Source of the DNA: Lachnospiraceae bacterium
Lineage (GTDB): Bacteria; Bacillota; Clostridia; Lachnospirales; Lachnospiraceae
Direction: 5' to 3'
Assembly (NCBI GenBank): GCA_021770785.1
Contig: JAETQH010000001.1
Location: 1 to 64,000, forward strand
DNA: 64,000 bases
In this document: piece by piece, positions 14,767 through 52,240 of the stretch
Numbering within the stretch: position 1 is the first letter of the stretch
How the letters are laid out: every line of letters starts with the position of its first letter
Position numbers and translations under genes: made by a program
The notes under the pieces: generated by a model
Seen by the model: only the letters and a program-made list of their open reading frames with translations
Told to the model about the DNA's origin: nothing
Database searches by the model: none

Positions 14767-14857
14767 CGAGTAGGAGAAGAATTTTTCCCTACTCGCTGCG
14801 CGCCCCATGCGCCGCCTCAGCGGCATACTTCCTCTGCATGGGGCTGTGCATTAAAAA
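14767..14857. ncRNA. Structured element, copy A (covarying stems)
   Basis: Order on the plus strand: an 8-bp hairpin CGAGTAGG/CCTACTCG; linker CTGCG; a 9-bp stem GCCCCATGC/GCATGGGGC enclosing a 5-bp hairpin (GCCGC-CTCA-GCGGC) and an 11-base bulge ATACTTCCTCT; then TGTGCATTAAAAA. The element at 52154-52240 has the same parts and sizes with different but complementary stem sequences. Read on the minus strand it follows the terminator of the anti-sigma operon and contains AGAGGAAG in the bulge. Whether it works as RNA or DNA is unknown. Confidence 0.6.
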
Positions 14858-14885
14858 CAGCAGGAAGCTTTTAGTGGCTTCCCGC
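14851..14885 (-). terminator. Terminator of the second ECF operon
   Basis: On the minus strand GCGGGAAGC / GCTTCCTGC with an eight-base loop, followed by TG and T5. Lies 64 bases after the anti-sigma stop codon and runs into structured element A. Confidence 0.8.
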
Positions 14886-14948
14886 TATCCTTTATAAATG
14901 CATAAATCTTTTGAATGTTTTTCTCTTTACAATGTTTCAGTTCTCAAA

Positions 14949-15542
14949 TTAATTGAACTCTTTGGGATTTACATAGCAGTTCGGACTTGTGGCTAAACCA
15001 TTTTGATATTTGACGGTCATATACAGGATTTCTCCGTTATTGGATAATTTTACATAACAAACTCCGGATTCATCAAATTTATCCGTAATCTCTATTTTCT
15101 GGTCATAGTAATATACCCATACAGAGCCATCATCTTTGTATTCTACATCCGGGGCATTTATGTCCTCCATCAATTCTTCTTCCGTCAGTGGACGTTCACT
15201 GCCATCAGCTTCAATAGCAACACCGCCCCCCCCTCTTTCAACGGTATTTCCATTTTCATCCTGATATAACATGTTATAAGTACCGTCCGAATCCACTTCC
15301 AAAACTGCGTCTGTCTGATCACCATGAATCCAAAGCTGGATAGTTCTTTGAATCCCTCCTATATTAGCCGCATAAACGGTACCTGTTCCACCTACTAATA
15401 AGACGCAGATGGCTGCTGCTGCAACTGCAATATTCATTTTTTGTTTTCTCTTTAATAACGTCATTTTTTCTACCTCCAAAGAAAAGTTATCGGAGGTATG
15501 TAATACCGAAAATGCCTGTTTATATTTTTCTTTATTTGTCAT
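14949..15542 (-). CDS. Putative membrane anti-sigma factor
   Basis: 197 residues: a short cytoplasmic N-terminus (about 35 residues, beginning MTNKEKYKQAFSVLHTSD), one transmembrane helix (MNIAVAAAAICVLLVGGTGTVYA) and an extracytoplasmic domain that I do not recognise. It overlaps the upstream ECF sigma gene by 11 bases, which makes it the likely cognate anti-sigma factor; the N-terminus resembles DUF4179-type anti-sigma proteins. AAAGGAGG precedes the start. The coding strand contains a run of eight G residues (complement of 15236-15243) encoding part of a Gly stretch in the external domain. Slippage there would truncate the protein outside the membrane. Confidence 0.75.
   Translation of the reverse strand: MTNKEKYKQAFSVLHTSDNFSLEVEKMTLLKRKQKMNIAVAAAAICVLLVGGTGTVYAANIGGIQRTIQLWIHGDQTDAVLEVDSDGTYNMLYQDENGNTVERGGGGVAIEADGSERPLTEEELMEDINAPDVEYKDDGSVWVYYYDQKIEITDKFDESGVCYVKLSNNGEILYMTVKYQNGLATSPNCYVNPKEFN
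15236..15243. repeat. G8 homopolymer tract in the anti-sigma gene
   Basis: Eight consecutive C on the plus strand, G8 in the coding sense (AGA GGG GGG GGC). Tracts of this length are prone to slipped-strand change. Confidence 0.95.
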
Positions 15543-16014
15543 CTTCCCATTCCTCCTTTAATGCTTCTTTGAGCAGTGCTCTTCCACGTGATAATCTGAC
15601 TTTTGTATTGCTTTGTGATATTTTTAATATATCCGCAATTTCATGGATGGTGTAATCCTCATAATAAAATAGGTGAATGACGATACGATACTTTTCCGGA
15701 AGCTTCATAACAGTCTCAAATAAAGTTTCTGTTTCCGGTGTTTCGAAAGCCAACGTTTCCATATAATCTTCTAAAGACAATTTATTTTGTCTCCAAAAGG
15801 TGTGATTCATATTTTTTGCTTTATTGATTGCCACCCTTATTAGCCATGCACGTATGTGCTGCTCATTTTCAAATTCTTTTTTGTTTGTGTGATACTGAAT
15901 AAACGTATCTTGAACAACATCCTCCGCATCTTCCGGATTTTTGCAGACATTAAACGCTACAATATAAAGGTTGTTCTGATAATGCTCAATCAGTTCCTGG
16001 ACTGGTTTTCTCAT
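15532..16014 (-). CDS. ECF-type RNA polymerase sigma factor
   Basis: 160 residues. Region 2 (NNLYIVAFNVCKNPEDAEDVVQDTFIQYHT, IRAWLIRVAINKAKN) and region 4 (LPEKYRIVIHLFYYEDYTIHEIADILKISQSNTKVRLSRGRALLKEAL) are complete. AAAGGAGT precedes ATG 16014. It is followed by its overlapping anti-sigma gene. The region upstream contains TGTAACCTTTT on the minus strand (16068-16095), reminiscent of ECF -35 elements, so autoregulation is possible, but the spacing to a CGT -10 is too short for the usual consensus. It is more distantly related to the sigma factor at 7086 than a recent duplicate would be. Confidence 0.9.
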   Translation of the reverse strand: MRKPVQELIEHYQNNLYIVAFNVCKNPEDAEDVVQDTFIQYHTNKKEFENEQHIRAWLIRVAINKAKNMNHTFWRQNKLSLEDYMETLAFETPETETLFETVMKLPEKYRIVIHLFYYEDYTIHEIADILKISQSNTKVRLSRGRALLKEALKEEWEDDK

Positions 16015-16107
16015 GAGTACTCCTTTGCCTTTTAAGATTTATCGAAAGGACCTTTCACTAATAATACAAACGAGGATGGTAAAAGGTTACAAATTTTCTT
16101 TCAACGC

Positions 16108-16136
16108 TTGCAGGGAATATTTTTCTCGGCTATAAT
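16108..16136 (+). promoter_or_regulatory. Promoter of the DUF4317 gene
   Basis: TTGCAG (16108-16113), 17-base spacer, perfect TATAAT (16131-16136), 45 bases before the ATG. Confidence 0.7.
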
Positions 16137-16181
16137 GGGAAGAGTTCAAATCTAATTTTCCAACAGAAACGGAGTTATATA

Positions 16182-17441
16182 ATGAATAAGAAAGATATTC
16201 TTGAATTAAAACGGCGTTTTAAGAAGGACGCCTGTACTTTTACCAGGCTTTGCGGGTGTTATGTGGATGCGGACCGCAATAAGGTTACCACCTTTGGCGA
16301 GACTTTTTTGAATTTAGAAGACGAGGAATTTTATAAATATTTAGAGATTGCCAAAAAAGTCTTGTCCGGCACCATCGGGAACAATATTTTAGAGCTGGAG
16401 TTTCCCACGGCGGAAGAGGCGCCCGGCGGCAGGCAGCAGTTTTTGATGGGGCTTAGGGAAAGTGCCCTAAAGAGTGACGAGCTGATGGACGCTTTTTACG
16501 ACCTGGTGATTGAAAATTACAGCTATGTAGGGAATTATCTGATTCTCGTATTCCATGACGCTTATGATGTGATGACGAAAACCTCTGACAATAACAAATT
16601 GGACGAATCGGAAGAGGTTTATGAGTATCTGCTCTGCGCCATCTGTCCGGTTTCCCTCTCAAAAGCGGGGCTGGGCTACCGGGAAGATGAGAACCGGATT
16701 GGTCCCCGTATCCGTGACTGGGTGGTGGGTGTTCCCGATACAGGCTTTGTATTTCCTGCCTTTACGGACCGGAGCACGGATATCCACTCCGTAATGTTCT
16801 ATACCAGAGACACGAAAACACCCCATGCGGAATTTATGGAGGCTGGGTTAGGCTGCGGCTCTAAATTTACTGCCACGGAACAGAAGCTGACCTTCCAGAG
16901 CATTGTAAAGGAAGTCATCGGCGAAGATGACGAGAAGAGTGAGGCTTTGTTCCTTGATATTCAGGACAACCTGAACGATTTGATTCCGGTAACGGAGGAC
17001 GAAACCGCAGAACCGGAGCCCGTTCCTGTAACCTTAGATACGATTTCTTCTGTGCTGTCGGAGAGCGGCGTTTCCGAGGAACAGGCTGCGGTCATCGGAA
17101 AAAACTACGAGGATGTATTTGGCGAGGAAGTCCCGGTGGCTGAAAATCTGGTGGACCCGAAGCTTTTGGAAGTAAATGCCAAACGGAAAGAGCGGTTAGA
17201 GCTGGTACAGCAGGTAGAGAACTTAAAGCAGCAGTTAGAGGAAACCCGTGCTCTCCCGGTGGAGGAAAGCGAGGACGGGGAGGATGTGCCTGCGGTAAAA
17301 ACCTATGATGTGATTCTCAGGGTGAAACCAGAAAAAGTGGGGCAGATTCATTCCCAGATGATTGACGGAAAAAAATGCCTGGTAATTCCCATGGAAGAGG
17401 ACGAACATGCGGCTGTGAACGGTGTAAATACCACGGTGTAG
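16182..17441 (+). CDS. DUF4317 domain protein
   Basis: 419 residues, soluble and acidic. Start MNKKDILELKRRFKKDACTFTRLCGCYVDADRNKV and the internal CAICPVSLSKAGLGYREDENRIGPRIRDWVVGVPDTGFVFPAF block are hallmarks of DUF4317, a family of unknown function widespread in Lachnospiraceae. A Glu/Pro-rich linker around 285-300 and a coiled-coil-prone stretch around 340-360 precede a small C-terminal domain (TYDVILRVKPEKVGQIHSQMIDGKKCLVIP). GGAG precedes the ATG at 16182. The final codons VNTTV-stop are echoed 50 bases downstream. Confidence 0.9.
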   Translation: MNKKDILELKRRFKKDACTFTRLCGCYVDADRNKVTTFGETFLNLEDEEFYKYLEIAKKVLSGTIGNNILELEFPTAEEAPGGRQQFLMGLRESALKSDELMDAFYDLVIENYSYVGNYLILVFHDAYDVMTKTSDNNKLDESEEVYEYLLCAICPVSLSKAGLGYREDENRIGPRIRDWVVGVPDTGFVFPAFTDRSTDIHSVMFYTRDTKTPHAEFMEAGLGCGSKFTATEQKLTFQSIVKEVIGEDDEKSEALFLDIQDNLNDLIPVTEDETAEPEPVPVTLDTISSVLSESGVSEEQAAVIGKNYEDVFGEEVPVAENLVDPKLLEVNAKRKERLELVQQVENLKQQLEETRALPVEESEDGEDVPAVKTYDVILRVKPEKVGQIHSQMIDGKKCLVIPMEEDEHAAVNGVNTTV

Positions 17442-17488
17442 GACTGCAGCGATAAAGGTATTGGAAGAAATCTTCCGCTGTAGGTGAG

Positions 17489-17556
17489 GTGAATACCACA
17501 GTGTAAGGCAGCCGGAGGACTGTCACACGAATTAATTCGTGCAACAGTCCCCTCCT
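17489..17556. other. 3'-end echo of DUF4317 plus strong hairpin
   Basis: 17489-17506 reads GTGAATACCACAGTGTAA, encoding the same VNTTV-stop as the real gene end (17424-17441) with only synonymous changes. It is followed at 17513-17556 by a long hairpin (GGAGGACTGT / ACAGTCCCCTCC around an inner CACGAATTAATTCGTG palindrome) that likely terminates transcription from both sides. Confidence 0.7.
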
Positions 17557-17567
17557 ATCTTCTACTA

Positions 17568-18899
17568 TTATTTTTTCTCCATAACACTCATATAGGACGG
17601 CCGTATAATCTTATCCGCACAAATCAGCTCTTCGATACGGTGGGCGCTCCAGCCGACGATTCTTGCCACCGCAAACATCGCCGTATAAAGCTCCTGGGGA
17701 ATCCCCAGCATGTCATAAACAAATCCACTGTAAAAATCCACATTGGGGCTGACACCCTTAAAAATATGCCTCTTTTCCGCAATTAACTTCGGCGCCAGCT
17801 CTTCGATATTCTCATAAAGCATTAAGTCCTGCTGCCTGCCCTTCTCCGCCGCCAGCTCCTCCACATACTGCTTGAATACCCGCTCCCTTGGGTCGGACAG
17901 GGAATATACCGCATGACCCATGCCATAGACAAGACCTTTTCTGTCAAATGCCTCTTTGTCAATGATTTTTGCCAGATATGCCGCAATTTCCTCCTTATCG
18001 GAAAAATCCTTCACATGGGCGCGGATATCCGTCATCATTTCCATAACCTTGATGTTGGCGCCGCCGTGCTTCGGACCCTTCAGCGAGGACATTGCCGCCG
18101 CCATAGTGGAGTAGGTGTCTGAGCCGGAGGACGTAACCACCCGGGTGGTAAAGGTAGAGTTATTTCCACCACCGTGCTCCATGTGCAGAATCAAAGCTGT
18201 GTCTAATACCTTTGCCTCCACAACGGAGTATTTTTTATCCGGTCGCATTAACATCAGAAGATTCTCCGCCGTGGAAATGGAGGTATCCGGCTGATGAATG
18301 TACATACTCTCATTTTTCTCATAATGGTTATAGGCATGGTATCCGTAAACCGCCAGCAGCGGAAATTCACTAATCAACTGGATACACTGCCTGAGGGAGT
18401 TGCTGATGCTGATGTCCTTTGCATTTTCATCATAGGAAGCCAACGTCAGAATACTTCTGGTCATGGAATTCATAATGTCCTCCGTCGATGCTTTCATAAT
18501 CACATCACGGGTAAAGTTGGTGGGCAGCGTCCGGCAGCGTCCAATCCAGTCCCGAAACTCTTTTTCCTGTTTTTCATCGGGCATCTCTCCCATCAAAAGC
18601 AGATAGGCAATTTTTTCAAAGCCCATCTCCGCCTCTCCCAAGCTGTTAATCAGATTTTCCACCTGATAGCCCCGGTACCAGAGCTCTCCCTCGCAGGAAA
18701 CCTTCTGTCCGTCCACAATCTTTGAGGAAACAATTTTGGAAATGTTGGTAAGCCCCGTGAGAACACCGTTTCCGTTCTCGTCCCGCAGTCCTCTGTTTAC
18801 GCCGTACTCCTCGTAAAGCCTCGGAGCGATACTGTCATTTCTGCGGCAGCGTTCCTCCTGTCCCTTCACATATTCATTCATCTGTTCCATGTATGTCAT
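17568..18899 (-). CDS. gltA: Citrate synthase
   Basis: Condenses acetyl-CoA and oxaloacetate to citrate (a 2-methylcitrate synthase cannot be excluded). 443 residues with the family elements: GLRDENGNGVLTGLT at the N-terminus, ILHMEHGGGNNSTFTTRVVTS (substrate-binding His), GPKHGGANIKVMEMM (catalytic His) and SPNVDFYSGFVYDMLG (catalytic Asp). This is the longer-N-terminus clade common in Clostridia. ATG 18899 is preferred for its purine-rich ribosome site; it starts inside the 3' end of marR (26-base overlap), so the two are co-translated. Control is probably through the CIRCE element and MarR upstream. Confidence 0.93.
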   Translation of the reverse strand: MTYMEQMNEYVKGQEERCRRNDSIAPRLYEEYGVNRGLRDENGNGVLTGLTNISKIVSSKIVDGQKVSCEGELWYRGYQVENLINSLGEAEMGFEKIAYLLLMGEMPDEKQEKEFRDWIGRCRTLPTNFTRDVIMKASTEDIMNSMTRSILTLASYDENAKDISISNSLRQCIQLISEFPLLAVYGYHAYNHYEKNESMYIHQPDTSISTAENLLMLMRPDKKYSVVEAKVLDTALILHMEHGGGNNSTFTTRVVTSSGSDTYSTMAAAMSSLKGPKHGGANIKVMEMMTDIRAHVKDFSDKEEIAAYLAKIIDKEAFDRKGLVYGMGHAVYSLSDPRERVFKQYVEELAAEKGRQQDLMLYENIEELAPKLIAEKRHIFKGVSPNVDFYSGFVYDMLGIPQELYTAMFAVARIVGWSAHRIEELICADKIIRPSYMSVMEKK

Positions 18900-19392
18900 C
18901 TGTTTCCCCCCATTCCTCTCTCTCACTGCTCATCACGGTTTCTAACTGTTTCATCAACTGAAGAAGCTGAATCAGATTTTCTTTTCCAAACCTTTGAATC
19001 ACTTTTTCGTAATACTTTTTCAGCGCCTCCTCCTGCTCCCCGAGCAGCTTGCACCCATTCTCGGTGATGGTGACATAAGTGCCCTCACTGCCGTTTCCGT
19101 CATGGGACCAGACCAGCAAGCCCTTATCCCGCAGCGCCCCAACCATTTTGGAAGTCTGGTGAATGGAAATCTGCATTTTTTCAGATAATTCTTTTAAATA
19201 GGTTCTTCCCGAATAGATATCCGATATCTCGCTGCCGGATGCGATATGGTGTAACGCAATATATTCCGGTACGGTAATTTTCTTAAAAAAATCCTTTACC
19301 TGTTCTTTATTCATCAAATATTTGCGATAGGTAAATTCATTGGTAAGTTTTAAAATTTCTTCTCTTCCTGCCGTCCCTGTTCCTTTTTCCAT
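18874..19392 (-). CDS. MarR family transcriptional regulator
   Basis: 172 residues with the winged helix core: YIALHHIASGSEISDIYSGRTYLKELSEKMQISIHQTSKMVGALRDKGLLVWSHDGNGSEGTYVTITENGCKLLGEQE. ATG 19392 follows AGGAGGG. It overlaps the citrate synthase gene, the natural candidate target. The only obvious operator ahead of it is a perfect CIRCE palindrome, which is an HrcA site rather than a MarR one, so whether MarR autoregulates is open. Confidence 0.85.
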   Translation of the reverse strand: MEKGTGTAGREEILKLTNEFTYRKYLMNKEQVKDFFKKITVPEYIALHHIASGSEISDIYSGRTYLKELSEKMQISIHQTSKMVGALRDKGLLVWSHDGNGSEGTYVTITENGCKLLGEQEEALKKYYEKVIQRFGKENLIQLLQLMKQLETVMSSEREEWGETDDIHGTDE

Positions 19393-19424
19393 GTAACGCC
19401 CTCCTGTCTCTAAGCGCAATTTTG

Positions 19425-19451
19425 TTAGCACTCTACATCGTAGAGTGCTAA
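19425..19451. promoter_or_regulatory. CIRCE element (HrcA operator)
   Basis: Exact match to the established consensus TTAGCACTC-N9-GAGTGCTAA: arms at 19425-19433 and 19443-19451 with a 9-base spacer; pairing even continues through most of the spacer and one base pair outward on each side. It lies directly after the -10 of the marR promoter, where a bound repressor would block initiation. CIRCE normally controls groESL and hrcA-dnaK operons. Confidence 0.9.
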
Positions 19452-19462
19452 CATTTGTTTTT

Positions 19463-19490
19463 ATTATAAAGGAAACCAGGAGTATGTCAA
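19463..19490 (-). promoter_or_regulatory. Promoter of marR-citrate synthase
   Basis: Minus-strand perfect TTGACA (19485-19490) and TATAAT (19463-19468) with a 16-base spacer. The expected transcription start falls beside the CIRCE element. Confidence 0.85.
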
Positions 19491-19576
19491 TAGACTTTAT
19501 CCTTTTTTAATATTTACGGTAAATTTTGAAAGGAACATTCCTGACCAAAATCTCTGCTTTTATACGAAATATTTTC

Positions 19577-20530
19577 CTACATCCCTTCCCGTATCACTCT
19601 CTCCACGTTTCGGTATGCAATTTTCTCCAGTGTCCCCTCCGAAATTCCCCGTTTCCGCAGCGCTGTAAAAAGTTTTTCCATCTGCGTACAATCCGAAATC
19701 TCAAATTGTCCACCAATACCGTCAAAATCCGTACCGATACCCACACATTCCACGCCACCGATTCGGATAAAATGTTCCACATGATCGCACATCCGTTCCA
19801 CCCTGCTTAAGGTATCCCCGGGATTCCCGTTTAAAAAAGAAGGTTCAAAATTAATTCCTGCCACTCCGCCATGCTCCGCTAAAAGCCGTATCATGTCATC
19901 CGTCAGATTCCGGGTAGCAGGGGCAAGCGCCCGGCAGTTAGAATGGGAAGCCACAAAAGGCTTTTTCATGATATCTGCCACGTCATAAAAACCGCCGTCC
20001 GACAGATGGGATACATCCACCAAAATCCCCTGCTCCTCCATATAAGAAACCGCCTCTTTTCCAAAGGGCGTAAGCCCCCGCCGCATTTCTTCCCTGTCAG
20101 AAGAATGGGGATAACCGAAACAGTTTTCATCATTCCAGGTCAGGGTTATCAGCCGTACGCCTTTCCTGTAAAACCTTTGGATATTTTCCAGTTTTTCCTC
20201 CGCCACAACGCCGTTTTCAATGGTTAAAAAGGCTGATATTTTTCCCTCCCTCCTGTTTTTCTCCAAATCCTCCGCCCGATATGCCGGGGCTAAGATATCG
20301 CTGCACTCTGACAAAGTATTCTGATAAATTTCATACATTTTTTCAAGCAGTGTGTTTAACTGGGGTATGCTCTCCTTCTGGGGTAAAAACATGGCAAAAA
20401 ACTGCCCGGCTGCCCCACTGCGTTTTAGCCGCTCCACATCCACCATGGTCCCTTCTAAGCTTTTTGCGGTCTTTTGCCCTCTTACTAACGCCTCCGATAA
20501 CGTGTCGCAGTGCATATCAATATAATTCAT
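19577..20530 (-). CDS. Membrane dipeptidase family (M19) peptidase
   Basis: Zinc hydrolase that cleaves dipeptides, often with D-residues or beta-lactam-like bonds. 317 residues, no signal peptide, so cytosolic here. Metal ligands are visible: DMHCDTL at the N-terminus (HxD), the Glu of FLTIENGV, VDVSHLSD, and VASHSNCRA; the GIGTDFDGIGG motif is also present. ATG 20530 is preceded by AGGAAA. Overlaps nothing; the DUF1700-FtsW gene ends 23 bases upstream, so co-transcription is possible. Confidence 0.9.
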   Translation of the reverse strand: MNYIDMHCDTLSEALVRGQKTAKSLEGTMVDVERLKRSGAAGQFFAMFLPQKESIPQLNTLLEKMYEIYQNTLSECSDILAPAYRAEDLEKNRREGKISAFLTIENGVVAEEKLENIQRFYRKGVRLITLTWNDENCFGYPHSSDREEMRRGLTPFGKEAVSYMEEQGILVDVSHLSDGGFYDVADIMKKPFVASHSNCRALAPATRNLTDDMIRLLAEHGGVAGINFEPSFLNGNPGDTLSRVERMCDHVEHFIRIGGVECVGIGTDFDGIGGQFEISDCTQMEKLFTALRKRGISEGTLEKIAYRNVERVIREGM

Positions 20531-20553
20531 ATTCTTTTCCTGCCCTTTCTGTC

Positions 20554-21891: not shown

Positions 21892-21978
21892 CCTGTTCCT
21901 CCTTTTTAATCTGTGTTTCTGCCTGCTTTTCCCCAGTTCCCGCATTGCTTCTGTTTATCTTCTCCTGAATGGCATCCG

Positions 21979-22311
21979 CTAAATCCCCTGCAGGGAAAGC
22001 ACATTTGCAACCGCAGACGCATACTGATTCCACTCGTCCTTCTTTTCTTTCAAAAATTTCTTTCCTTTTCCGGTTATGTGGTAATATTTCCGCACTTTTC
22101 CTGTCTTATCATCCTCGTAAACTGTCACCAGCTCTTTCGCCTCCAAAGAATGCAAAAGGGGATACAAGGAACCTGCTTTCAGTTCAAACACATTCTCCGA
22201 ACGTCCCCGCAGTGTGTCTATCATTTCATACCCATACATGTCTCTTTCCTCTAAGAGACGTAAAATCAGCATTGTTAAACTTCCCTGAATCAATGATCTG
22301 TCAATTGCCAT
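21979..22311 (-). CDS. PadR family transcriptional regulator
   Basis: 110 residues: IDRSLIQGSLTMLILRLLEERDMYGYEMIDTLRGRSENVFELKAGSLYPLLHSLEAKELVTVYEDDKTGKVRKYYHITGKGKKFL is a textbook PadR winged helix. ATG 22311 follows GGAGAAC. It probably represses its own operon through the two TATAG-N5-CTATA sites at its promoter and controls the downstream FtsW-like membrane protein. Confidence 0.9.
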   Translation of the reverse strand: MAIDRSLIQGSLTMLILRLLEERDMYGYEMIDTLRGRSENVFELKAGSLYPLLHSLEAKELVTVYEDDKTGKVRKYYHITGKGKKFLKEKKDEWNQYASAVANVLSLQGI

Positions 22312-22468: not shown

Positions 22469-22500
22469 GTTCTTTTCGTATCCTTTTCCTGCATATTTAA

Positions 22501-39048: not shown

Positions 39049-39053
39049 GTGTG

Positions 39054-44739: not shown

Positions 44740-44788
44740 GGTGGTTTCCCTTCTTCCTGAAATAGATGGGTTTTTTGTTAGAGGGACG

Positions 44789-44940: not shown

Positions 44941-44973
44941 TGTTTTCTGACAATAACAACGTATTACTTCTAT

Positions 44974-45381
44974 TTAGCCTAAGATAGAGAAGGAAATCAA
45001 TAAGCCATATAGGGCGATGGATTCCGCCAGAGCTACGAAGATTAATGCTTTACCCATGATGCTGGAGTCCTCGCTTAGGGCGCCGATGGCGGCGGAAGCT
45101 GCGCTGGCTACGGCTACACCGGCGCCTATGCAGGAGAGTCCGGTGGAGAGGGCTGCGGCTAAGTAGCGCCAGCCCTCAGCGGAAGCGGCTGCGGTGTCGG
45201 CTGCGTAGATGTGTCCGCTGAATAAGAGCATGTCAGCTGTTACTAAGGTTCCGAAGAACAGCAGGATGTTGACTGCTAAGGACGCTTTGAAACTGCGTTC
45301 TTTTTTTCTGGAGAGATAATAGCCTCCAAAGGGAATTACCATACTGAAAACTAAGATTACTGTTAAAATAATTTTTGCCAT
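44974..45381 (-). CDS. ntpK: V-type ATPase subunit K (membrane rotor)
   Basis: Forms the rotor ring that carries ions through the membrane. 135 residues, four helices. The ion-binding Glu is E120 in the last helix (FVALAESIALYGLLISFSIL); the N-terminal helix pair is diverged and lacks a second Glu. The Gln of Na+-type c-subunits is replaced (CIGAGVAVASAA), which hints at proton use, though E-S at 120-121 is also found in Na+ enzymes; coupling ion unresolved. AGGAGG precedes the ATG, two bases after subunit I. Confidence 0.9.
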   Translation of the reverse strand: MAKIILTVILVFSMVIPFGGYYLSRKKERSFKASLAVNILLFFGTLVTADMLLFSGHIYAADTAAASAEGWRYLAAALSTGLSCIGAGVAVASAASAAIGALSEDSSIMGKALIFVALAESIALYGLLISFSILG

Positions 45382-45383
45382 TG

Positions 45384-47312
45384 TTATTTTCCTCCTGACG
45401 CTTTCTTAAAAAATGATTGGAACGGTTTTCCTGTACCTTTATAAAAACGGCTGAACATCTCGTAATATTCCAGACGCAATACCTGTATTCCCACTACCAG
45501 GCCTTCAAGGCCGCTGACTAAGATATTTCCCAGCACCACCACAATCATGTTGGGGGAGCCGCTCTCGTAGCCTGCCAGTGTCATTACCACGCCCATCATT
45601 CCGGCGTGGCTTAGAGCGAAGGCACCCACACGGACGAAGGAGATACTGTTGGTGGCGTAGCTTAATACCACATCAAACAGTTCCACCAGCGCCTCCACAA
45701 AGAACATTACTTTGCTTCCCTCCGGAAGAATTTTCTTTTTGCGCTCCAATAAATTGGAGAGCGGTTCTTTCAGCATAATGGCAAGCAGCGGAATACCTAA
45801 TGCCACCGCTAATATTCCCGTGGCGGGAAGTGCATGGCCTGTGGCATAGAGCACAATACAGATGACCACACAGCCGTAACAGATAATACCGGAAACGCCG
45901 CTGGCGCTAAAGAGCATTCTGCCCATATCTTTTGCCCGGATGGCGTTTACGATATTTATCACCATGGCAATTAAGATAAGCGCCATACCGAAGCCGATAG
46001 CAAGCATCAGCGTGGTCATAATATTGTCCATGGGGCGCATCCACACCGGTTCTAAGATATCCTCAAAGCCGAAAATACTGCCGTAAAGGAAACCGAATAC
46101 CGTAGACCAGATACCCGCTACGGAGATAATCGCTGCAAGATTCATTTTTTTCAGTTTATACAGGATAAAGCCTCCTGCCACTAAGCATAAGCCCTGCCCG
46201 ACATCCCCGAACATAATGCCAAACATCAGTGTGTAGGTCAATGCGATAAAAATCGTGGGGTCCATCTCATTATAGGCGGGCAGTCCATACATCTGCACAA
46301 ACATCTCAAAGGGCTTGAAGATTTTGGGATTCCTCAATTTGGTAGGCGGACCTGAAATTGAGGTTTCGTCCACGTCCTCTTCCATGATATGGACTTTATC
46401 ATCCCCCTGGATATCCCGCTCTAACCCGGCAGCGTCCCGCCTGCTCATCCAGCCGTAAAGAATATAATATTCGCTCATGCCGTTGCCGTCAAATTTGGGT
46501 TTGGTGCAGACCGCCATTTTACGGATATCAAAATTCCTGCAGTAAGCCTGTAGGGAATAGTAAGCGCAAATTAACTGCCTCTCATGCTTCTCTAACAGCT
46601 CCCGCATCTTATTTTTCAGGGAAAGTTCTTCCTTTTCATAGGCTTTTATCTGCTTCTCTAATTCCAGATAAGCAGCGTCCGGGGTGCCCTCAATGGTATC
46701 CGGCACGTAAATCCTTTCATAATGAAAAGAGAGACACACCGCATCCACCTCCGCCACATACATTTTGGGGACAAAATAGGCTCCCCACACATAATCCTCA
46801 TCACTGTAGGATTCATAAAACAGAATGTGGTCAGTGTCATGGATATACCGCTCTAACTTCTGGTAATAGTCCCTGGATATCCGCCCGAAGCGGTATGCAA
46901 TAAACTTAAACTCTAAAATCTTTTTAAACTCATAATCTAATTCCCGGAAGGGTTCTATTTCCTCCACGAGTTTTGCCGCCGCAAGCCGCTCCTGCTTTAA
47001 CTTCTCCTGCCGGGTTACGATTTTCTCCGCCAGGGCATAAATGCTGTCAATGACCTGCGCCGCCTCTTCCACCTTCATTTTTTCCGTGGGGAACATGTCC
47101 TCCCTGCCAAATCCCTCCCAGAGAAGCTTCGCTTTTGCATATTCCTCTTTATAAAGATTGCTCTCCACAAAGGGGCGGACATTGGCGAGATTATTGAGGC
47201 TGGCAATGGCATTCTCAAAGTGAATTTCATAATTACTCAGATATGTATCCATTACCCGGTCAATGTCCGCTTTGGGGCCTGTGATGTGAAGCAATTTCAT
47301 TTTTTCTACCAC
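45384..47312 (-). CDS. ntpI: V-type ATPase subunit I
   Basis: Stator membrane subunit. 642 residues: a cytoplasmic N-terminal half with coiled coils and about eight transmembrane helices in the second half, including FGIMFGDVGQGL, the SYVRVGAFALSHAG-like segment (SISFVRVGAFALSHAGMMGVV) with the essential Arg, and LEGLVVGIQVLRLEYYEMFSRFYKGTGKPFQSF. GTG start at 47312 is favoured, since GGAGGG lies eight bases upstream and the next ATG is too far from it. Confidence 0.95.
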   Translation of the reverse strand: MVEKMKLLHITGPKADIDRVMDTYLSNYEIHFENAIASLNNLANVRPFVESNLYKEEYAKAKLLWEGFGREDMFPTEKMKVEEAAQVIDSIYALAEKIVTRQEKLKQERLAAAKLVEEIEPFRELDYEFKKILEFKFIAYRFGRISRDYYQKLERYIHDTDHILFYESYSDEDYVWGAYFVPKMYVAEVDAVCLSFHYERIYVPDTIEGTPDAAYLELEKQIKAYEKEELSLKNKMRELLEKHERQLICAYYSLQAYCRNFDIRKMAVCTKPKFDGNGMSEYYILYGWMSRRDAAGLERDIQGDDKVHIMEEDVDETSISGPPTKLRNPKIFKPFEMFVQMYGLPAYNEMDPTIFIALTYTLMFGIMFGDVGQGLCLVAGGFILYKLKKMNLAAIISVAGIWSTVFGFLYGSIFGFEDILEPVWMRPMDNIMTTLMLAIGFGMALILIAMVINIVNAIRAKDMGRMLFSASGVSGIICYGCVVICIVLYATGHALPATGILAVALGIPLLAIMLKEPLSNLLERKKKILPEGSKVMFFVEALVELFDVVLSYATNSISFVRVGAFALSHAGMMGVVMTLAGYESGSPNMIVVVLGNILVSGLEGLVVGIQVLRLEYYEMFSRFYKGTGKPFQSFFKKASGGK

Positions 47313-47328
47313 TTTAAAAACCCTCCAT

Positions 47329-48366
47329 TCACATTGTTAAAACCAGCTCTTTGATTTCCCTTGCGGGAAGCTGATAACGGATTCCCTCTAAGATGGAAGT
47401 CAAAAGGTCTATTTCGTGTTCTTTATCATATAAAAACTTCAGCACCGGAGCTAAGGACATGGGGTATTTCCTGCAGACAAGACGGTAGGTTTTCTCCATA
47501 ATCTTCTGCTCCGTAAGTTCCTCCCCCAGGCTGGCAACGGCATCTTTTCCCTTGAAATAAACGGTTTTCGCCAAGTGCTCCGTAAATCCCTCCACCGTCT
47601 CCGCCTCTATCATCTGCCGCAGCTGGTCTTTTTTCAAGCGATAGGTGACGGGAATGAGATTGACGTAAATATCCGCAGGCTTCATCTGATAGAAGCGCTT
47701 CGAGCGGTATATCCACATAATATTCTGCCAGTCGATTTCTGTTCCCAGCAAAATCTCCATCATCTGCTTTACATTTTTATCCCGTATCTTTTGTTTTCGT
47801 TTCCAGGCATTCTTATAGTAATATACATCTAGCCCAAAGGCGTAATCTGCATAGCTCATCTGCCCGTTTTCCGACATGCGGTGTAAAAACCGCTCGTAGT
47901 CCGTACCTGCCACCGCCGCTAAAAGCTCTCCAAAGCTCTCCGCCTGTGCCGCCATTCCGGCATCATAACAGGCATGTCCGTCAAAAATCAGCTTTAAATA
48001 GCCTAATTCATAATGGCTCCCTGTCATGGCATATTCTAAGCAAGTCTTTAGCACATTGACCTCATAGCGGAAAAAGATAAGCTCTAGTCCCGCCCGCTGC
48101 TCCCCACGGGCAAACTGGTAAAGCTTTTTGTAATCTCCGTAAAGGGAGTTACGGATTACCGCCTCCACCTGCCCCCGGTGGGCAATTTCCTCATGGCTGG
48201 CAAAAATCGGCGCATACCCCTCCGCTTCCCGCAAGAAGGAAATAAAAGCGTCCACCGTCTCATACTCCGAAAGCCTGAGATAGTCCTCTTCCTCTAACAG
48301 CCTGCCGCTCATCGCCTTTGTCTTTGTCACCAATCCGCTGTATTCCAACAAACCACCTGACATCAT
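47329..48366 (-). CDS. ntpC: V-type ATPase subunit C
   Basis: Links the central stalk to the membrane ring. 345 residues, all helical, with the repeated vATP-synt_AC39 pattern (YSGLVTKTKAMSGRLLEEEDYLRLSEYETVDAFISFLRE..., ENVLK-like VNVLKTCLEYAM..., INWQNIMWIYRSKRFYQM). Two adjacent ATGs (48366 and 48363) are equally possible after AAAGGAG. Confidence 0.9.
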   Translation of the reverse strand: MMSGGLLEYSGLVTKTKAMSGRLLEEEDYLRLSEYETVDAFISFLREAEGYAPIFASHEEIAHRGQVEAVIRNSLYGDYKKLYQFARGEQRAGLELIFFRYEVNVLKTCLEYAMTGSHYELGYLKLIFDGHACYDAGMAAQAESFGELLAAVAGTDYERFLHRMSENGQMSYADYAFGLDVYYYKNAWKRKQKIRDKNVKQMMEILLGTEIDWQNIMWIYRSKRFYQMKPADIYVNLIPVTYRLKKDQLRQMIEAETVEGFTEHLAKTVYFKGKDAVASLGEELTEQKIMEKTYRLVCRKYPMSLAPVLKFLYDKEHEIDLLTSILEGIRYQLPAREIKELVLTM

Positions 48367-48399
48367 TCTGCTCCTTTTCCGTTCCGCATGTTCCCGCTG

Positions 48400-48711
48400 T
48401 TACATCTGTATGATTTTTTGGAACAATTCTTCCGCCCGCTGTTCCTTTGTCCGGGCAAACTCCTCTTCTAAACGGCTCTCCGCTTCTTTCGTCTTGTCCT
48501 CCATGCGGACAATCTGCTGTTTCGTTTCCCCGAAAAATCGCTCCTTAAGGCGCTGTTCCGTCTCCCGCTCAGCCTGTTCTATCCTGCCGTCTATCTCACT
48601 CTTGTCCTGCTCCATCCGGAAAACCAACTGCTCCTTCCGGGATTTTGCATCGCTGATAATCGCCTCTGCTTTTTCCTCAATTTCATTTAATCTGGTAATA
48701 ATCTCATTCAT
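48400..48711 (-). CDS. V-type ATPase subunit G/H (peripheral stalk)
   Basis: 103 residues, a single long Glu/Lys/Arg-rich coiled coil (NEIEEKAEAIISDAKSRKEQLVFRMEQDKSEIDGRIEQAERETEQRLKERFF) as in AhaH/NtpF, the partner of subunit E. First gene of the operon, following a good promoter and AGAGGGG ribosome site. Confidence 0.85.
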   Translation of the reverse strand: MNEIITRLNEIEEKAEAIISDAKSRKEQLVFRMEQDKSEIDGRIEQAERETEQRLKERFFGETKQQIVRMEDKTKEAESRLEEEFARTKEQRAEELFQKIIQM

Positions 48712-48748
48712 GTAAAAACCCCTCTTCTGCTCTCTTCCTACTTATAAA

Positions 48749-48777
48749 ATTATAATCATTTTCTATTCTTCTGTCCA
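48749..48777 (-). promoter_or_regulatory. Promoter of the V-ATPase operon
   Basis: Minus strand TGGACA (48772-48777), 17-base spacer, perfect TATAAT (48749-48754), 38 bases before the first gene. Confidence 0.75.
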
Positions 48778-48820
48778 GCACTATAAATCCATTATTTTTC
48801 TATTCTGCCCTCAGAAATTA

Positions 48821-48892
48821 CTGTTCACTGGAACGACCGTAGGGAGTGAACAGCAAGAATCAAAAAGCAGCCGGGAATATTTTCCCGGCTGC
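48821..48892 (-). terminator. Two hairpins between the 60-residue protein gene and the V-ATPase operon
   Basis: 48867-48892 is a perfect GCAGCCGGGAA / TTCCCGGCTGC stem with a TATT loop, followed on the minus strand by TTTTTG: a clear terminator for the upstream gene. 48821-48853 is a second stem, CTGTTCACT / AGTGAACAG, with a GAACGACCGTAGGG-type loop. Confidence 0.85.
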
Positions 48893-48906
48893 ATATCATC
48901 TGTACT

Positions 48907-49089
48907 CTATGCTTCTGCGCTCCTTTGTATTCTGCGGGTGATATCTCTGACTTCTGCCATAATCGTCGCATACAGCTCACTCTCTAATCCCACCGGCGAC
49001 ATATGCGGACACTCCTGTTTCATACGATACGCCTGCCTCAACAAACGGCTCTTTACCTCTTCTAGTTCCCAAAGCTGCTCTGTACTCAT
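48907..49089 (-). CDS. 60-residue helical protein, unknown
   Basis: Begins MSTEQLWELEEVKSRLLRQ and ends DITRRIQRSAEA; charged, likely two helices with a Pro/Cys-containing turn (KQECPHMSPVG). The length recalls Spo0E-like phosphatases but the SxxxD signature is absent, so I do not assign it. GGAG lies seven bases before ATG 49089; a longer frame lacks a ribosome site. Monocistronic with its own terminator. Confidence 0.55.
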   Translation of the reverse strand: MSTEQLWELEEVKSRLLRQAYRMKQECPHMSPVGLESELYATIMAEVRDITRRIQRSAEA

Positions 49090-49322
49090 AACCTTTCTCC
49101 ATTTTCGTCTTATATTTTCGCTACAGTGCGTTGACAGGGACAAGCCCGTCTTGCTCCCCGCCGGTGCCACCATCGCCGCTGTAACTAAATACTGTATTTG
49201 CACCTCCACTATGATAGCACATCTAGTAGATTATGGAGCAAAAACTTCTTCGGCAATTTTACCAAAGTTTGCTCTGGGATTTTAGGATTTTATCTATTTA
49301 CAAAATCATTTTTATCAATATG

Positions 49323-50033
49323 TTACAATGCCATCAGTGTTTGAATCGCTTCTTTTCTAACAATACTCTGACCGTGTTCGACAATATAGGCAATCTGCCC
49401 CTCATTAGAAAAACGACCGTCATCATACTCCACGGCAGCAAAGGCAAAGGTGCGCATTTCCTCCTTGGCAAAGTTAGAGAAGTCCATCACAAGGAAGTAT
49501 TCTCCCTCTAATTTGTATAGGCTGCTCTCAGGAATCCTCTCCTGAAAACAGGCATGGCACATCTTTACCACCTTATCAAAGGAAGAAAATACCAGGGCAC
49601 AGGTCATAGGCTGTTTTGGTTTTTCCTTTTTCGCCTCTTTCTTTTCCTCTTTCTGACGTTTCTCTAAAAAGGCGTCCACCATATCCTGTTTTTCCTCCCG
49701 GCTTAAGTTCTTAAACTCTTCCATCTTCTCCGGTGTCATCTGTCCCATAAGCTGATTGATGGTGTTCATCAAATCTTTAAAGCTCAAATCCGAATCCCCG
49801 CCAAAGGTGATTGCCATGCTGTGGTCAGAAAGCAGCTCCGCTTTTACCATCGGTGAAATATTTTCTATGTTAATGTCCTCCTGCTCTTCCACAAGGCTTA
49901 ATACTAACCGCATGAACTGCTGGGTAGTGTCTCCGTTTCCAATAATCTCATCAATCTCAAATCCCATGTCTTTGATTTCTTCTTCTGTCAAAGCACAACG
50001 GATTTTATTTTCTCCTAAGCGTTTAATTTCCAT
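49323..50033 (-). CDS. mecA: MecA adaptor protein
   Basis: Adaptor that delivers substrates to the ClpCP protease. 236 residues: N-terminal substrate-binding domain (MEIKRLGENKIRCALTEEEIKDMGFEIDEI), a long charged linker (residues 110-140, Lys/Glu-rich), and a C-terminal ClpC-binding domain (ALVFSSFDKVVKMCHACFQ...SLYKLEGEYFLVMDF...AYIVEHGQSIVRKEAIQTL). ATG 50033 is preferred over an upstream GTG. Confidence 0.9.
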   Translation of the reverse strand: MEIKRLGENKIRCALTEEEIKDMGFEIDEIIGNGDTTQQFMRLVLSLVEEQEDINIENISPMVKAELLSDHSMAITFGGDSDLSFKDLMNTINQLMGQMTPEKMEEFKNLSREEKQDMVDAFLEKRQKEEKKEAKKEKPKQPMTCALVFSSFDKVVKMCHACFQERIPESSLYKLEGEYFLVMDFSNFAKEEMRTFAFAAVEYDDGRFSNEGQIAYIVEHGQSIVRKEAIQTLMAL

Positions 50034-50084
50034 AGGCCATTTCCCCACTTAATCTGTTAAAAATCATATGATATCTGTGTGAAT

Positions 50085-50113
50085 ATTATCCTATTTTTTT
50101 GTCGATTTGTAAA
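50085..50113 (-). promoter_or_regulatory. Promoter of mecA
   Basis: Minus strand TTTACA (50108-50113), 17-base spacer, GATAAT (50085-50090). Confidence 0.55.
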
Positions 50114-50178
50114 CCCTAAATTCCGACATTTTCGAGATGAAATTACTGGCAGAAGGCGCTGTTCTGCTTCCGGTTACA

Positions 50179-50823
50179 CTAGAACTGCTTCTTTTCCATA
50201 ATTTTTATGCTGGCAGAAACAGACACAGCTAATATCAGCAAAGTTACAACCACGGCACCCAATGCCAGTTTTGCCAGATTCATCTGTTCTGCCATGGCGG
50301 ATACGTCAATCCCTGCCTCCTCGAAAATGTTTGTCGCAAAGAAGAACATTCCAAAAACTACAAAGAACAGCACGAAGGTTGCCAGTTTTCCCTTCTCTGC
50401 GCCGAATTTTAACTCGATGGGTATCATAACAGCTAACATCAGAAGCAGCACAAGAAGATACGTCAGCATGGAAACACCCCATTCTCTTACATCCATCTTT
50501 TCTCTTCCGTAACGGAAAATCATTACCACTGCAAAGCTGACAATCCATGCCGTCCCTCCGGCGATAATTCCAAAGAGATACTTTTCCAACGCATACTGTT
50601 TTCTCTGAAAAGGCAGCGTAAAAAGAAAGATGTTTCCCTTGTTAAATTCGTCATAATGTATGGTAGTAACAGCGAAAATTCCGCATAACATCGTCACATA
50701 CCCCACAATAAACGTTTCATTCTGCCCTGTGATAATAAACAGCGCTGCTATAGCAAACACGATGATAAAAAATCGCTTTTGGCCTGCCATAAGATAAAAA
50801 TCCTTCATCAACAATCCTCTCAT
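50179..50823 (-). CDS. ABC-2 type transporter permease
   Basis: 214 residues, six transmembrane helices, beginning MRGLLMKDFYLMAGQKRFFIIVFAIAALFI, the usual opening of ABC-2 permeases paired with GntR/YtrA-type regulators. Overlaps the ATPase gene by four bases. Substrate unknown; cell-envelope stress or antibiotic export is typical of this operon type. Confidence 0.85.
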   Translation of the reverse strand: MRGLLMKDFYLMAGQKRFFIIVFAIAALFIITGQNETFIVGYVTMLCGIFAVTTIHYDEFNKGNIFLFTLPFQRKQYALEKYLFGIIAGGTAWIVSFAVVMIFRYGREKMDVREWGVSMLTYLLVLLLMLAVMIPIELKFGAEKGKLATFVLFFVVFGMFFFATNIFEEAGIDVSAMAEQMNLAKLALGAVVVTLLILAVSVSASIKIMEKKQF

Positions 50824-51671
50824 ACCCGTTCTCCTTTCACCATCATGGTAATGACTTCGTCAATATTTCCCTTTTCTAACACCATCTCCGGGTAATTTTC
50901 CCGGAAGAACTGCCGCTTATCCGTCAACACGCTGTAGCCGTAAGACTCTCTTTTCCTCCGCAGCAGATATTCCTTTTCTAAGGACGGATAAACCTTTTCT
51001 TCCACCTTCAGAATGCCATAGTTGCTTAGAAGTACATCCGTCTCTTCATGAAGAATGATATTTCCCTGGTGTATCATATACAAATCATCACAGATTTTCT
51101 CCAAATCCGTGGAAATATGGGAGCTGATGATGATGGCACAGTCCTGATGCTGCTCCATGTACTGCTGGAGCGTCTCTAAAATTTCATCCCGCGCCACCAC
51201 ATCAAGCCCGGCGGTAGGTTCATCTAATATCAGAAGCTTTACCTCATGGGACATGGCTGCGGCGAGTTTTAACTTCGCTTTCATACCCGTAGAAAATTCA
51301 CTGATTTTCTTATCAAGAGGCAGCCCCATATGACGGCACATCTCCAAAAACGCCTCTTCCTCATAGGTATGGTAAAACTGTCTCAATATGCCTGCCACAT
51401 CCTTGATTCTTAAATACTCGCTGAAACCGGAGTCCGGCAGCACCACACCAATCTGCTCCTTATCCTCCGCCGTCAGCTCCTCCGGGCGTTTTCCCATGAC
51501 CCGTATGGTCCCGCGGTCAGCGGAAATCAGATTCAAAATCATCTTAAAGGTGGTGCTCTTTCCCGCTCCGTTTTCTCCAATCAGCCCGGTAATCTGTCCC
51601 GGTGCCACCTCAAGTGAACATTTTAAATGAAAGTTTCCATAACTCTTTTCTGCATTTTCCAATTTTAACAT
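50820..51671 (-). CDS. ABC transporter ATP-binding protein
   Basis: 283 residues. Walker A GENGAGKST, signature FSTGMKAKLKLAAAM (a FSxGM-type variant of LSGGQ), Walker B LLILDEPTAGLD and switch His in SSHIS. A C-terminal extension of about 75 residues follows the NBD. Starts on the last base of the gntR stop codon (TGATG) and overlaps the permease gene, so the three genes form one coupled unit. Confidence 0.92.
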   Translation of the reverse strand: MLKLENAEKSYGNFHLKCSLEVAPGQITGLIGENGAGKSTTFKMILNLISADRGTIRVMGKRPEELTAEDKEQIGVVLPDSGFSEYLRIKDVAGILRQFYHTYEEEAFLEMCRHMGLPLDKKISEFSTGMKAKLKLAAAMSHEVKLLILDEPTAGLDVVARDEILETLQQYMEQHQDCAIIISSHISTDLEKICDDLYMIHQGNIILHEETDVLLSNYGILKVEEKVYPSLEKEYLLRRKRESYGYSVLTDKRQFFRENYPEMVLEKGNIDEVITMMVKGERV

Positions 51672-52045
51672 CAGGGTTCCTCCATAACAATTGCAAATAT
51701 TTCCCGCAGCTCTTCATCGGAAAGTCCATAGGTTCTGCCTTTTTTCACTGCCGCGGCAAAGGCGTCCTCCACTTCCTTTTTCCACTCTTCCTCTAAAAGA
51801 GTCTTGTTTTTCTCTGCGATAAAGCTTCCTTTCCCATGAACAGTCACCACCAGACCCTCCTGCTCTAAGAAGTCATAGGCTTTTTTTACTGTCAGGGCGC
51901 TGATTTTCAATTCTCCGGCAAGCGACCGGACCGAGGGCAGCGGCTCCCCGCTTTGTAATGTCCCATGCAGCACCTGCGCTTTTACCTGTTCTACAATCTG
52001 CTCATAGATGGGCTGCATGGAGGAATGATTAATCATGATTTTCAT
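51671..52045 (-). CDS. GntR family regulator (YtrA type)
   Basis: 124 residues: a GntR winged helix (PIYEQIVEQVKAQVLHGTLQSGEPLPSVRSLAGELKISALTVKKAYDFLEQEGLVVTVHGKGSFIA) and only a short C-terminal helical part, the YtrA layout. ATG 52045 follows AAGGAGA. It controls the ABC genes and surely itself, given the palindromic operator over the promoter. Confidence 0.92.
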   Translation of the reverse strand: MKIMINHSSMQPIYEQIVEQVKAQVLHGTLQSGEPLPSVRSLAGELKISALTVKKAYDFLEQEGLVVTVHGKGSFIAEKNKTLLEEEWKKEVEDAFAAAVKKGRTYGLSDEELREIFAIVMEEP

Positions 52046-52067
52046 TTGTTTCTCTCCTTGTATAAAC

Positions 52068-52111
52068 AGTATACAACAGTATATAACTGTTGTCAACTGT
52101 TATATACTGTT
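52068..52111 (-). promoter_or_regulatory. gntR promoter inside a palindromic operator
   Basis: Minus strand TTGACA (52091-52096), 17-base spacer, TATACT (52068-52073). The palindrome AACAGTATATAAC (52075-52087) / GTTATATACTGTT (52099-52111) straddles the -35 and spacer, so repressor binding would exclude polymerase. Additional half-sites AACAGTATA and ACTGTT flank it. Confidence 0.85.
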
Positions 52112-52153
52112 TATTTTAATTTTTTATATAGCAGGGTCTTTCCTGTCAAAAAT

Positions 52154-52240
52154 CGAGTAGGGGAGCTTCTTCTTCCCCTGCTCGCTGCGCCGGGTGCGGG
52201 CAGCTCTTGCTGCTTCCTTCCTCTCCGCACCCGTGTGCAT
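52154..52240. ncRNA. Structured element, copy B (covarying stems)
   Basis: Hairpin CGAGTAGGGGA / TCCCCTGCTCG, linker CTGCGC, 9-bp stem CGGGTGCGG / CCGCACCCG enclosing GCAGC-TCTT-GCTGC and an 11-base bulge TTCCTTCCTCT, then TGTGCATAAAAA. Same plan as copy A (14767-14857) with compensatory changes in both stems. On the minus strand the CGAG hairpin is followed by ATTTTTG, so it could terminate an RNA starting near ATGCACA. A weak terminator for the GGDEF gene precedes it at 52238-52262. Confidence 0.65.

Follow-up and report, generated by a model that had tools for sequence, protein, structure and literature searches.

The window, the whole 64,000-nucleotide stretch of a Lachnospiraceae contig analysed here, contains structured repeats that are two members of a single family of dispersed elements about 85 nt long, both on the minus strand. 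Each copy adjoins the terminator of a leftward gene, as noted in the first-pass annotation of this DNA, which took both genes to be regulatory. This description suits the gene upstream of copy B, which encodes a GGDEF protein, but not the one upstream of copy A, which encodes a 197-aa protein without a Pfam match and adjoins a sigma-70-like gene. The two units are present where they had been placed, with slightly shifted boundaries, and consist of the following parts:

52151..52238, minus strand: copy B, 88 nt, GCACA ... CGATT, covariance model match of 108.2 bits, with fold
52187..52238, minus strand: bulged hairpin of copy B, with GCACA/GCGC base, 9-bp stem and inner 5-bp hairpin, from fold and covariation
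52214..52224, minus strand: 11-nt purine-rich bulge of copy B, AGAGGAAGGAA, from sequence and fold
52154..52184, minus strand: 3' hairpin of copy B, similar to group II intron domain VI and with the same 3' end as introns
52158, minus strand: A at -8 from the 3' end of copy B
52239..52278, minus strand: hairpin like that of an intrinsic terminator, followed by T-run and TTAT target, immediately 5' of copy B
14764..14849, minus strand: copy A, 86 nt, second subfamily (GCCCCATGC stem), covariance model match of 87.0 bits, with fold
14798..14849, minus strand: bulged hairpin of copy A, from fold and covariation
14825..14835, minus strand: 11-nt bulge of copy A, AGAGGAAGTAT, from sequence and fold
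14767..14795, minus strand: domain-VI-like 3' hairpin of copy A, from fold
14850..14889, minus strand: terminator hairpin followed by T-run and TAAT target, immediately 5' of copy A

Both copies fold as originally described, with 9-bp stems (GCCCCATGC in copy A vs CGGGTGCGG in copy B), inner 5-bp stems and an 11-nt bulge; the minimum free energies are -47.8 kcal/mol for copy A and -54.2 kcal/mol for copy B (z = -7.2 and -8.0, respectively), and none of 200 shuffles of either copy was as low. The terminator that had been proposed on the minus strand of copy B, behind its last hairpin, turned out to be the element end with flanking T's, the terminator being on the 5' side. At the gathering score, the only Rfam families in the window are two tRNAs, with none at the element copies, and group II models gave no match in the window at this score or in 52100-52300 at E up to 10; sub-threshold Rfam matches in the latter region (E up to 10) were read as noise.

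A genome-wide covariance model search, for which the first-pass annotation had called, found 55 copies in the same assembly at E<=1e-3 among 63 listed at E<=0.1, the eight matches above E 1e-3 being left out, and further copies were found across Lachnospiraceae genomes; the element pattern also matches in the genome of Sporofaciens musculi. Fifty of the 55 copies are 82-90 nt long and the longest has 135 nt, lengths at which no reverse transcriptase (RT) of its own is encoded; the element has no protein, no GUGYG and no recognisable domain V. Its 5' pentamer is GCACA or GCGCA in 49 of the 55 copies and GTGCA in one. The scan of other genomes covered 80 of 113 loci and yielded 129 model matches, 102 of which were used for flanks; the remainder were truncated by contig ends, were opposite-strand echoes or scored below 42 bits, and seven weak matches were restored for the analysis of array polarity. 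Longer relatives (type 2), which terminate in a different hairpin, account for the matches read in genome G005 and for some in G014 and G019.

Over 126 distinct rows taken from other genomes, the proportion of paired cells is 95.7%, compared with at most 52.8% in slid controls, and two-sided changes occur at 23 of 26 pairs; in these rows the 3' helix is biased by the fetch pattern, whereas the bulged hairpin is unbiased. The compensatory changes seen in the two copies of the window are thus borne out by the family, and true covariation, and with it a selected RNA or DNA structure, is strongly supported. Two hairpins are kept, with strong covariation in the bulged one.

One copy, located between ffh and rpsP, is precisely missing from three relatives, without target duplication; no other clean empty site was found among the fetched loci. 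The element is therefore mobile now or was so recently, inserting cleanly and without target duplication at the one resolved site. The structure had been regarded as selected, which agrees with the strong covariation, but what carries it is a many-copy mobile repeat with a clean empty site and, as far as tested, not a conserved regulatory element. In tandem arrays the copy nearer to the terminator has the higher score in 24 of 31 pairs, the lower in six and the same in one (p=0.0014). Five of six related phage contigs carry the element; since the sixth has the same terminator and then diverges, these contigs support only the 5' boundary. No element match was found in the plasmids and INPHARED phages searched. 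The features of a DDE-transposon MITE are lacking: there is no duplication at the single empty site, and the element ends, compared by eye, are not inverted repeats.

Directly 5' of most copies lie a terminator hairpin, a T-run and a TTAT-like tetramer. In the own genome, a terminator was found directly 5' of 41 of the 52 copies that come first in their array, never on the downstream side (0/52) and never in shuffles (0/260); the corresponding numbers for other genomes are 61/78, 0/75 and 0/390. The usual site is thus 3' of a terminator-like hairpin and T-run, with an NNT/G junction (the slash marks the insertion point). The same kind of target is occupied by the group IIC introns of these genomes, one of them an own-genome intron at TTTTTAT/GTGCG. 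Such introns insert at terminators according to PMC4424553 and recognise both IBS-EBS pairing and the terminator stem-loop according to PMC7161350, and the group IIC combination of a position 3' of a terminator stem-loop with an IBS1 is found at the element as well. Of 12 introns, eight could be parsed; in these, 28 of 32 positions are paired between EBS1 and the four bases that end the exon (permutation mean 15.3, p=5e-5). In the C197 intron of the own genome, EBS1 is ATAA, which fits TTAT, and the element junction pairs fully with ATAA (G-T allowed) in 24 of 52 own-genome and 64 of 78 other copies; in the control with the four bases before the junction, full pairing was seen in no own-genome copy and in two copies from other genomes. 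An EBS1-like ATAA within the last hairpin of the element itself is not general (5 of 55 own-genome copies).

The 3' terminal sequence is also common to the element and the group IIC introns of its genome. Thirty five of the 55 own-genome copies terminate in CTACTCGATT, as do all 41 intron ends read with a search pattern that permitted CTACTYRATT, three of them from the own genome, where a fourth IIC-like intron end reads CTACCCGATT. An A at -8 is present in 45 of 51 scored own-genome copies; opposite it there is a T in 35 and a C in nine of 48 scored copies (C-G in three, T-T in one). Since this A mostly faces a pyrimidine, there is no clear bulged branch point, and the invariance of the branch A is not decisive as a proof. 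The full bulged hairpin is absent from the introns scanned with the covariance model, and comparison of that hairpin by eye with domain IV of the introns, in the region where the RT begins, gave no convincing match. Domains V-VI of a G019 intron align to the model from end to end (24.2 bits, E 5e-4); because this alignment has neither the inner hairpin nor the bulge, homology to domain V is not claimed.

Co-occurrence of the element with group IIC introns was analysed using RF02001. Among 150 Lachnospiraceae genomes, the own one included, no association was found in the matches listed for these draft assemblies, either for presence as such (15/31 vs 48/119, p=0.42) or when only matches of at least 50 bits in the listed rows were considered (RF02001 in 3/11 element genomes vs 60/139, p=0.36). 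Within the genus, presence of any copy was likewise unassociated with RF02001 (5/13 vs 2/11, p=0.39), while with at least two matches of at least 50 bits, a cut-off chosen afterwards, RF02001 was present in 4/5 vs 3/19 other genomes (p=0.014). Genome G015 has 12 introns and zero elements; G165, conversely, has at least 29 element matches and zero RF02001 and zero RF00029 among the matches listed. In the own genome, no intact partner protein for the element was seen.

What says most about the element is its insertion target, together with the 3' end that it shares with group IIC introns; neither could be seen in the first-pass annotation. Because of its site behind terminators and its identical 3' end, the element looks like a miniature parasite of these introns, and we infer that it is mobilised by the intron machinery. 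On balance, it is probably a non-autonomous retroelement of about 85 nt, SINE-like or group-III-intron-like, that depends on group IIC introns. Against this dependence speak the missing family-wide association with RF02001, the missing association of any-copy presence within the genus, the many element matches of G165 and G041 without detected group IIC introns, the introns of G015 without any element, the CTACCCGATT end, the unclear branch point and the different terminal hairpin of the type 2 relatives. The element RNA would arise through read-through transcription or from a promoter of the element. Its bulged hairpin may be bound by the intron-encoded RT or may substitute for domain V, and the domain-VI-like 3' hairpin would be used in trans by the intron ribonucleoprotein. 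At the IBS1 site the RNA would then become linked to the DNA of the terminator and be reverse-transcribed, and repeated insertion at the same target would give tandem arrays in which the youngest copy adjoins the terminator. Somewhat more tentative is the full proposal that group IIC ribonucleoproteins take the domain-VI mimic of a domain-V-less RNA of about 85 nt and splice it in trans into terminator DNA, and that this counterpart of SINEs and group III introns spreads through Lachnospiraceae and their phages.

The partner could instead be another RT lineage, from a group II intron outside IIC or of unclassified kind, the element sharing a general group II domain VI end. The own genome has nine RT matches, located near several RNA kinds, CTACTCGA occurs also at other group II intron ends, and G165 and G041 are rich in elements while group IIC introns were not detected in them. 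We nevertheless consider such a partner rather unlikely: both the terminal ATT and the target of terminator and IBS1 agree with group IIC, whereas the five other group II ends read and three of G041 have GAC, although only one of the introns with GAC ends is classed (RF02005). In G041, with its 11 element matches, one element ends in CTACTCGATT, and the group II introns found all end in CTACTCGAC. Less likely again is a derivative of a single-strand transposon of the REP, PATE or IS200/IS605 type, moved by a hairpin-recognising Y1 transposase. It would account for hairpins near both ends, tandem copies and duplication-free insertion 3' of a T-rich tetramer, but would make the intron-like 3' end and the terminator target convergent, leaving unexplained the CTACTCGATT end common to introns and the hairpin-plus-IBS1 target. 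Moreover, the single own-genome Y1 gene is of the IS200 type and its 3.4-kb locus has no element match, and G018 (14 element matches) and G014 (five) have no Y1 match; an IS200/RAYT partner was rejected, as there is neither correlation with the element nor any element match at the Y1 locus.

Two further readings appear very improbable. If the copies were fossil deletion fragments of group IIC introns, repeatedly produced and immobile as units, the common 3' end and kind of site would follow, but not the clean empty site or a full bulged hairpin that was not found in the introns scanned; the narrow length range of the own-genome copies and the strong covariation in many subfamilies require replication as a unit. 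If the host kept the element as a functional RNA or DNA beside terminators, for example as a 3'-end stabiliser or regulator, strong conservation of the structure would be expected, as observed. However, contexts vary, copies lie on phage contigs, distal array copies score lower, and the single orthologous site tested showed presence or absence between relatives and no conserved copies.

Non-LTR retroelements are considered to descend from group II introns. Spliceosomal introns are given the same ancestry (PMC4424553). If dependence on group IIC introns is true, the element would be a living bacterial element stripped to a binding hairpin and domain VI, and a model for the origin of small dependent introns and SINEs. 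It would also aid the annotation of intergenic repeats in gut Lachnospiraceae. In the literature searched we found no report of a comparable element; a published list of candidate structured RNAs (PMC8040213) might include one.

With group IIC introns (RF02001, group-II-D1D4-3) the element has in common the target of terminator hairpin and IBS1, the CTACTCGATT end and the A at -8, but these introns are roughly 2 kb long, whereas the element of about 85 nt has no protein, no D1-D4 and no recognisable domain V and begins with GCRCA rather than GUGYG. SINEs with a stringent LINE partner are short, non-autonomous and have the 3' end of an autonomous retroelement; the element is likewise short and ends like an autonomous retroelement of its own genome (three intron ends, 35/55 copies), but it is bacterial, its partner would be a group II intron and its RNA intermediate is putative. 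REP/BIME, PATE and other bacterial palindromic repeats are short, intergenic and form tandem arrays; for the element, by contrast, no Y1/RAYT link was found, and it has a terminator-linked target and a domain-VI-like end. The 5' consensus of group III introns is NUNNG, which GCRCA does not match. Those of Euglena chloroplasts are described as being about 90-120 nt long, sometimes with DI and DVI motifs only and without domain V, and trans-acting machinery is thought necessary for them (PMC4424553). The element is slightly below this size and its 3' hairpin fits domain VI, but it is bacterial and dispersed mostly behind terminators, and any splicing of it is hypothetical. ORF-less group II introns retain the ribozyme core, which the element lacks. 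For these introns the protein acts in trans (PMC4424553), as it would for the element.

Both copies of the element lie on the minus strand and follow a common plan:

14764-14849, minus strand: element copy A, covariance model match and reading
52151-52238, minus strand: element copy B, covariance model match and reading

On this strand, a terminator hairpin, a T-run and NNT directly precede the GCACA with which each copy starts. Next comes a 9-bp stem that has an 11-nt bulge on its 5' side (AGAGGAAGNAN) and encloses a 5-bp hairpin whose loop is 4 nt long, followed by GCGC and a second hairpin, GAGYAGGG...CCCTACTC, one base of whose second arm differs in copy A; both copies end in GATT. The folds are far more stable than shuffled sequences (z -7.2 and -8.0), confirming the structural plan that the first-pass annotation had described for the two copies, and their position behind terminators was also correctly recognized.

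BLAST with copy B as the query yielded 48 matches (E<=10) in the 4.99-Mb assembly of the same genome (hereafter own), while a covariance model built from 19 copies yielded 63 at E<=0.1, 55 of them at E<=1e-3, with lengths of 82-90 nt in 50 of the 55. The element is a family of 55 own copies rather than two, and further ones were found in other genomes. The large subfamilies CGGGTGCGG and GCCCCATGC are each represented by one window copy; copies outside them carry yet other stem sequences. Two-sided changes occur at 13 of 26 predicted pairs in 18 own copies; for other genomes, 126 distinct copies show them at 23 of 26 pairs, and 95.7% of their cells are paired (shuffles, mean 80.3%; slid structures, at most 52.8%). 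This supports the earlier observation that the stems differ yet pair. All 13 pairs of helices 2 and 3, which form the bulged hairpin, show such changes in the 126 foreign copies; the test is stronger for this hairpin and weaker for the last one, which was fixed by the fetch pattern. No Rfam family matched the element in a search of the window and the copy B region.

The insertion target was scored with a fixed score (threshold 12) for the 52 of 55 own copies that are first in an array. A terminator-like hairpin with a T-tract lies directly 5' of 41 of these 52 copies (downstream side, 0/52; shuffles, 0/260) and of 61/78 foreign ones (downstream, 0/75; shuffles, 0/390); at several copies below the target score, hairpins with larger loops are visible by eye. 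The four preceding bases are TTAT in 22/52 own and 61/78 other copies. Copies frequently abut head to tail, with subfamilies mixed within arrays. In 31 adjacent pairs, the foreign loci being selected for at least one good copy, the terminator-proximal copy scores higher in 24 cases, lower in 6 and equal in 1 (p=0.0014), which fits repeated insertion at one site, with the older copies displaced outward and left to decay.

The element is mobile, and its insertion is clean at the one site with both flanks resolved. There, an own copy lies between ffh and rpsP (gene names by reading of the sequence), and its flanks join exactly in three compared genomes that lack this copy, G018, G005 and G002. 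Query positions 1-313 (10-313 in G002) and 395-701 overlap by one subject base; therefore, insertion of an 82-base unit neither duplicated nor removed any base, one T being assignable to either flank. The site, TTTCCTTTTTGAT behind a weak hairpin, is no obvious terminator; the target therefore seems to be the shape with a T-run, not terminator function.

Besides its kind of target and its covarying structure, the element has a 3' end common to group IIC introns. RF02001 (group-II-D1D4-3), the Rfam marker of these introns, has three matches in the own genome and is present in 11 of 39 relatives. All 5' junctions of group IIC introns that we read lie behind terminator-like hairpins; the own intron on contig C197 starts with GTGCG directly after TTTTTAT. 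In 8 parsable introns out of 12 taken, four bases of a conserved domain I loop pair with the final four bases of the exon at 28/32 positions (permuted mean 15.3, p=5e-5). These bases are ATAA in C197, which pairs with TTAT (4/4), in G018 contig C25, which pairs with CTAT (3/4), and, by eye, in G014 contig C54. Full pairing with ATAA, G-T allowed, is found at the junctions of 24/52 own and 64/78 other element copies versus 0/52 and 2/78 for the four bases just upstream. The pattern TGTGAGAGG...CTACTYRATT identified 41 intron ends in 8/40 genomes, three of them own, and its reversed control none in the 40 genomes. All 41 ends are CTACTCGATT, as is the element 3' end in 35/55 own copies (CCTACTCGATT in 33/55). 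Another own IIC-like end is CTACCCGATT, and one foreign element copy lies behind CTACTTAATT, apparently a group II intron 3' end. Five other group II ends, one classed RF02005, are CTACTCGAC or CTACCCGAC. At own locus L217 (C150:64370-64415), a group IIC 3' end is directly followed by the apparent 5' end of another IIC intron; at L074, L076 and L077 (own C42, C43, C222), RT-14, RT-4 and TwoAYGGAY RNAs lie near reverse transcriptase matches.

We infer that the element RNA is most likely taken in trans by a group IIC intron ribonucleoprotein: the 3' hairpin would serve as domain VI, and the bulged hairpin, in domain V's place, would bind either the protein or the core of the intron. One report describes IIC exon recognition by IBS-EBS pairing and the terminator stem-loop and supports a domain VI-protein interaction in these introns (PMC7161350), so that a domain VI mimic could conceivably be used in trans. 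Group III introns, about 90-120 nt long and without domain V, are thought to live on trans machinery (PMC4424553); if used in trans, the element would work similarly to them and to a SINE. Unlike group II introns, it has no domain V match, GUGYG or protein, and by these tested features it is not one of them. We rate it as a minimal non-autonomous derivative or satellite of group II introns; in a bolder reading, it may be a bacterial SINE. No report of a comparable element came up in literature searches with partial coverage.

Two genomes are real difficulties for a IIC partner: G165 has at least 29 element matches and neither an RF02001 nor an RF00029 match, and G041 has 11 element matches and only GAC-ending introns, its three group II ends each being CTACTCGAC. 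Possibly the mobilising intron was lost after an element burst, or the element has a different RT partner. The element A at -8 mostly faces a pyrimidine and differs from the introns' bulged A. An intact protein was not seen for the own ATAA intron because the intron runs into the contig end. Co-occurrence was counted in draft assemblies, which break at multicopy introns, by searches that scored a limited number of candidates. Among 150 family genomes, RF02001 is not associated with the element (15/31 with it, 48/119 without, p=0.42), nor at >=50 bits among the matches listed (3/11 vs 60/139, p=0.36); it is present in 3/8 genomes with at least 10 counted element matches, and several of these genomes hold a longer related form, type 2. 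Within the genus, any element match likewise gives no association (5/13 vs 2/11, p=0.39), and the one between RF02001 and at least two matches of >=50 bits (4/5 genomes vs 3/19 others, p=0.014) emerges only under cut-offs picked afterwards.

A scan of species genomes found at least 113 stretches matching the element pattern, with record titles mostly of Lachnospiraceae, many metagenome-assembled, and further of Roseburia, Dorea, Hungatella, Sporofaciens, Eubacterium, Ruminococcus, Clostridium and others. Matches occur in 14/40 genomes (own and 39 relatives; E<=1e-3) and in 31/150 family genomes (one per genus, own counted; E<=1e-5), some of these matches being type 2. The plasmid and named phage collections contained no element match; viral contigs gave one pattern match, and a copy is present in 5/6 related phage contigs, upstream of a gene whose start, by our reading, resembles that of a terminase small subunit. 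In these contigs (L312-L317), the same terminator is occupied by different subfamilies, and in one group what is apparently left of an older copy follows the new one; in L313 the terminator is present and the element absent.

Type 2 repeats (L042, L053, L038, L051, L058, L059, L061, L281-L287) have about 140-165 nt common to aligned pairs, often in the order of a palindrome behind the T-run of a terminator, a small hairpin, AGGAT-like bases and a similar bulged hairpin. Their last hairpin differs from that of the element and often ends in GATTC, a 3' end unlike that of IIC introns. On G005:C107 (L038, L202), a type 2 repeat is followed directly, after its last hairpin and T-run, by an inserted group IIC intron. 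The own copy L022 (C225:3098-3232) carries repeats with GGAAGATAAATCTTCT that enlarge its last hairpin, and own C81:5692-5812 resembles it. Two neighbouring tRNA genes with equal scores lie at 9209-9396 of the window.
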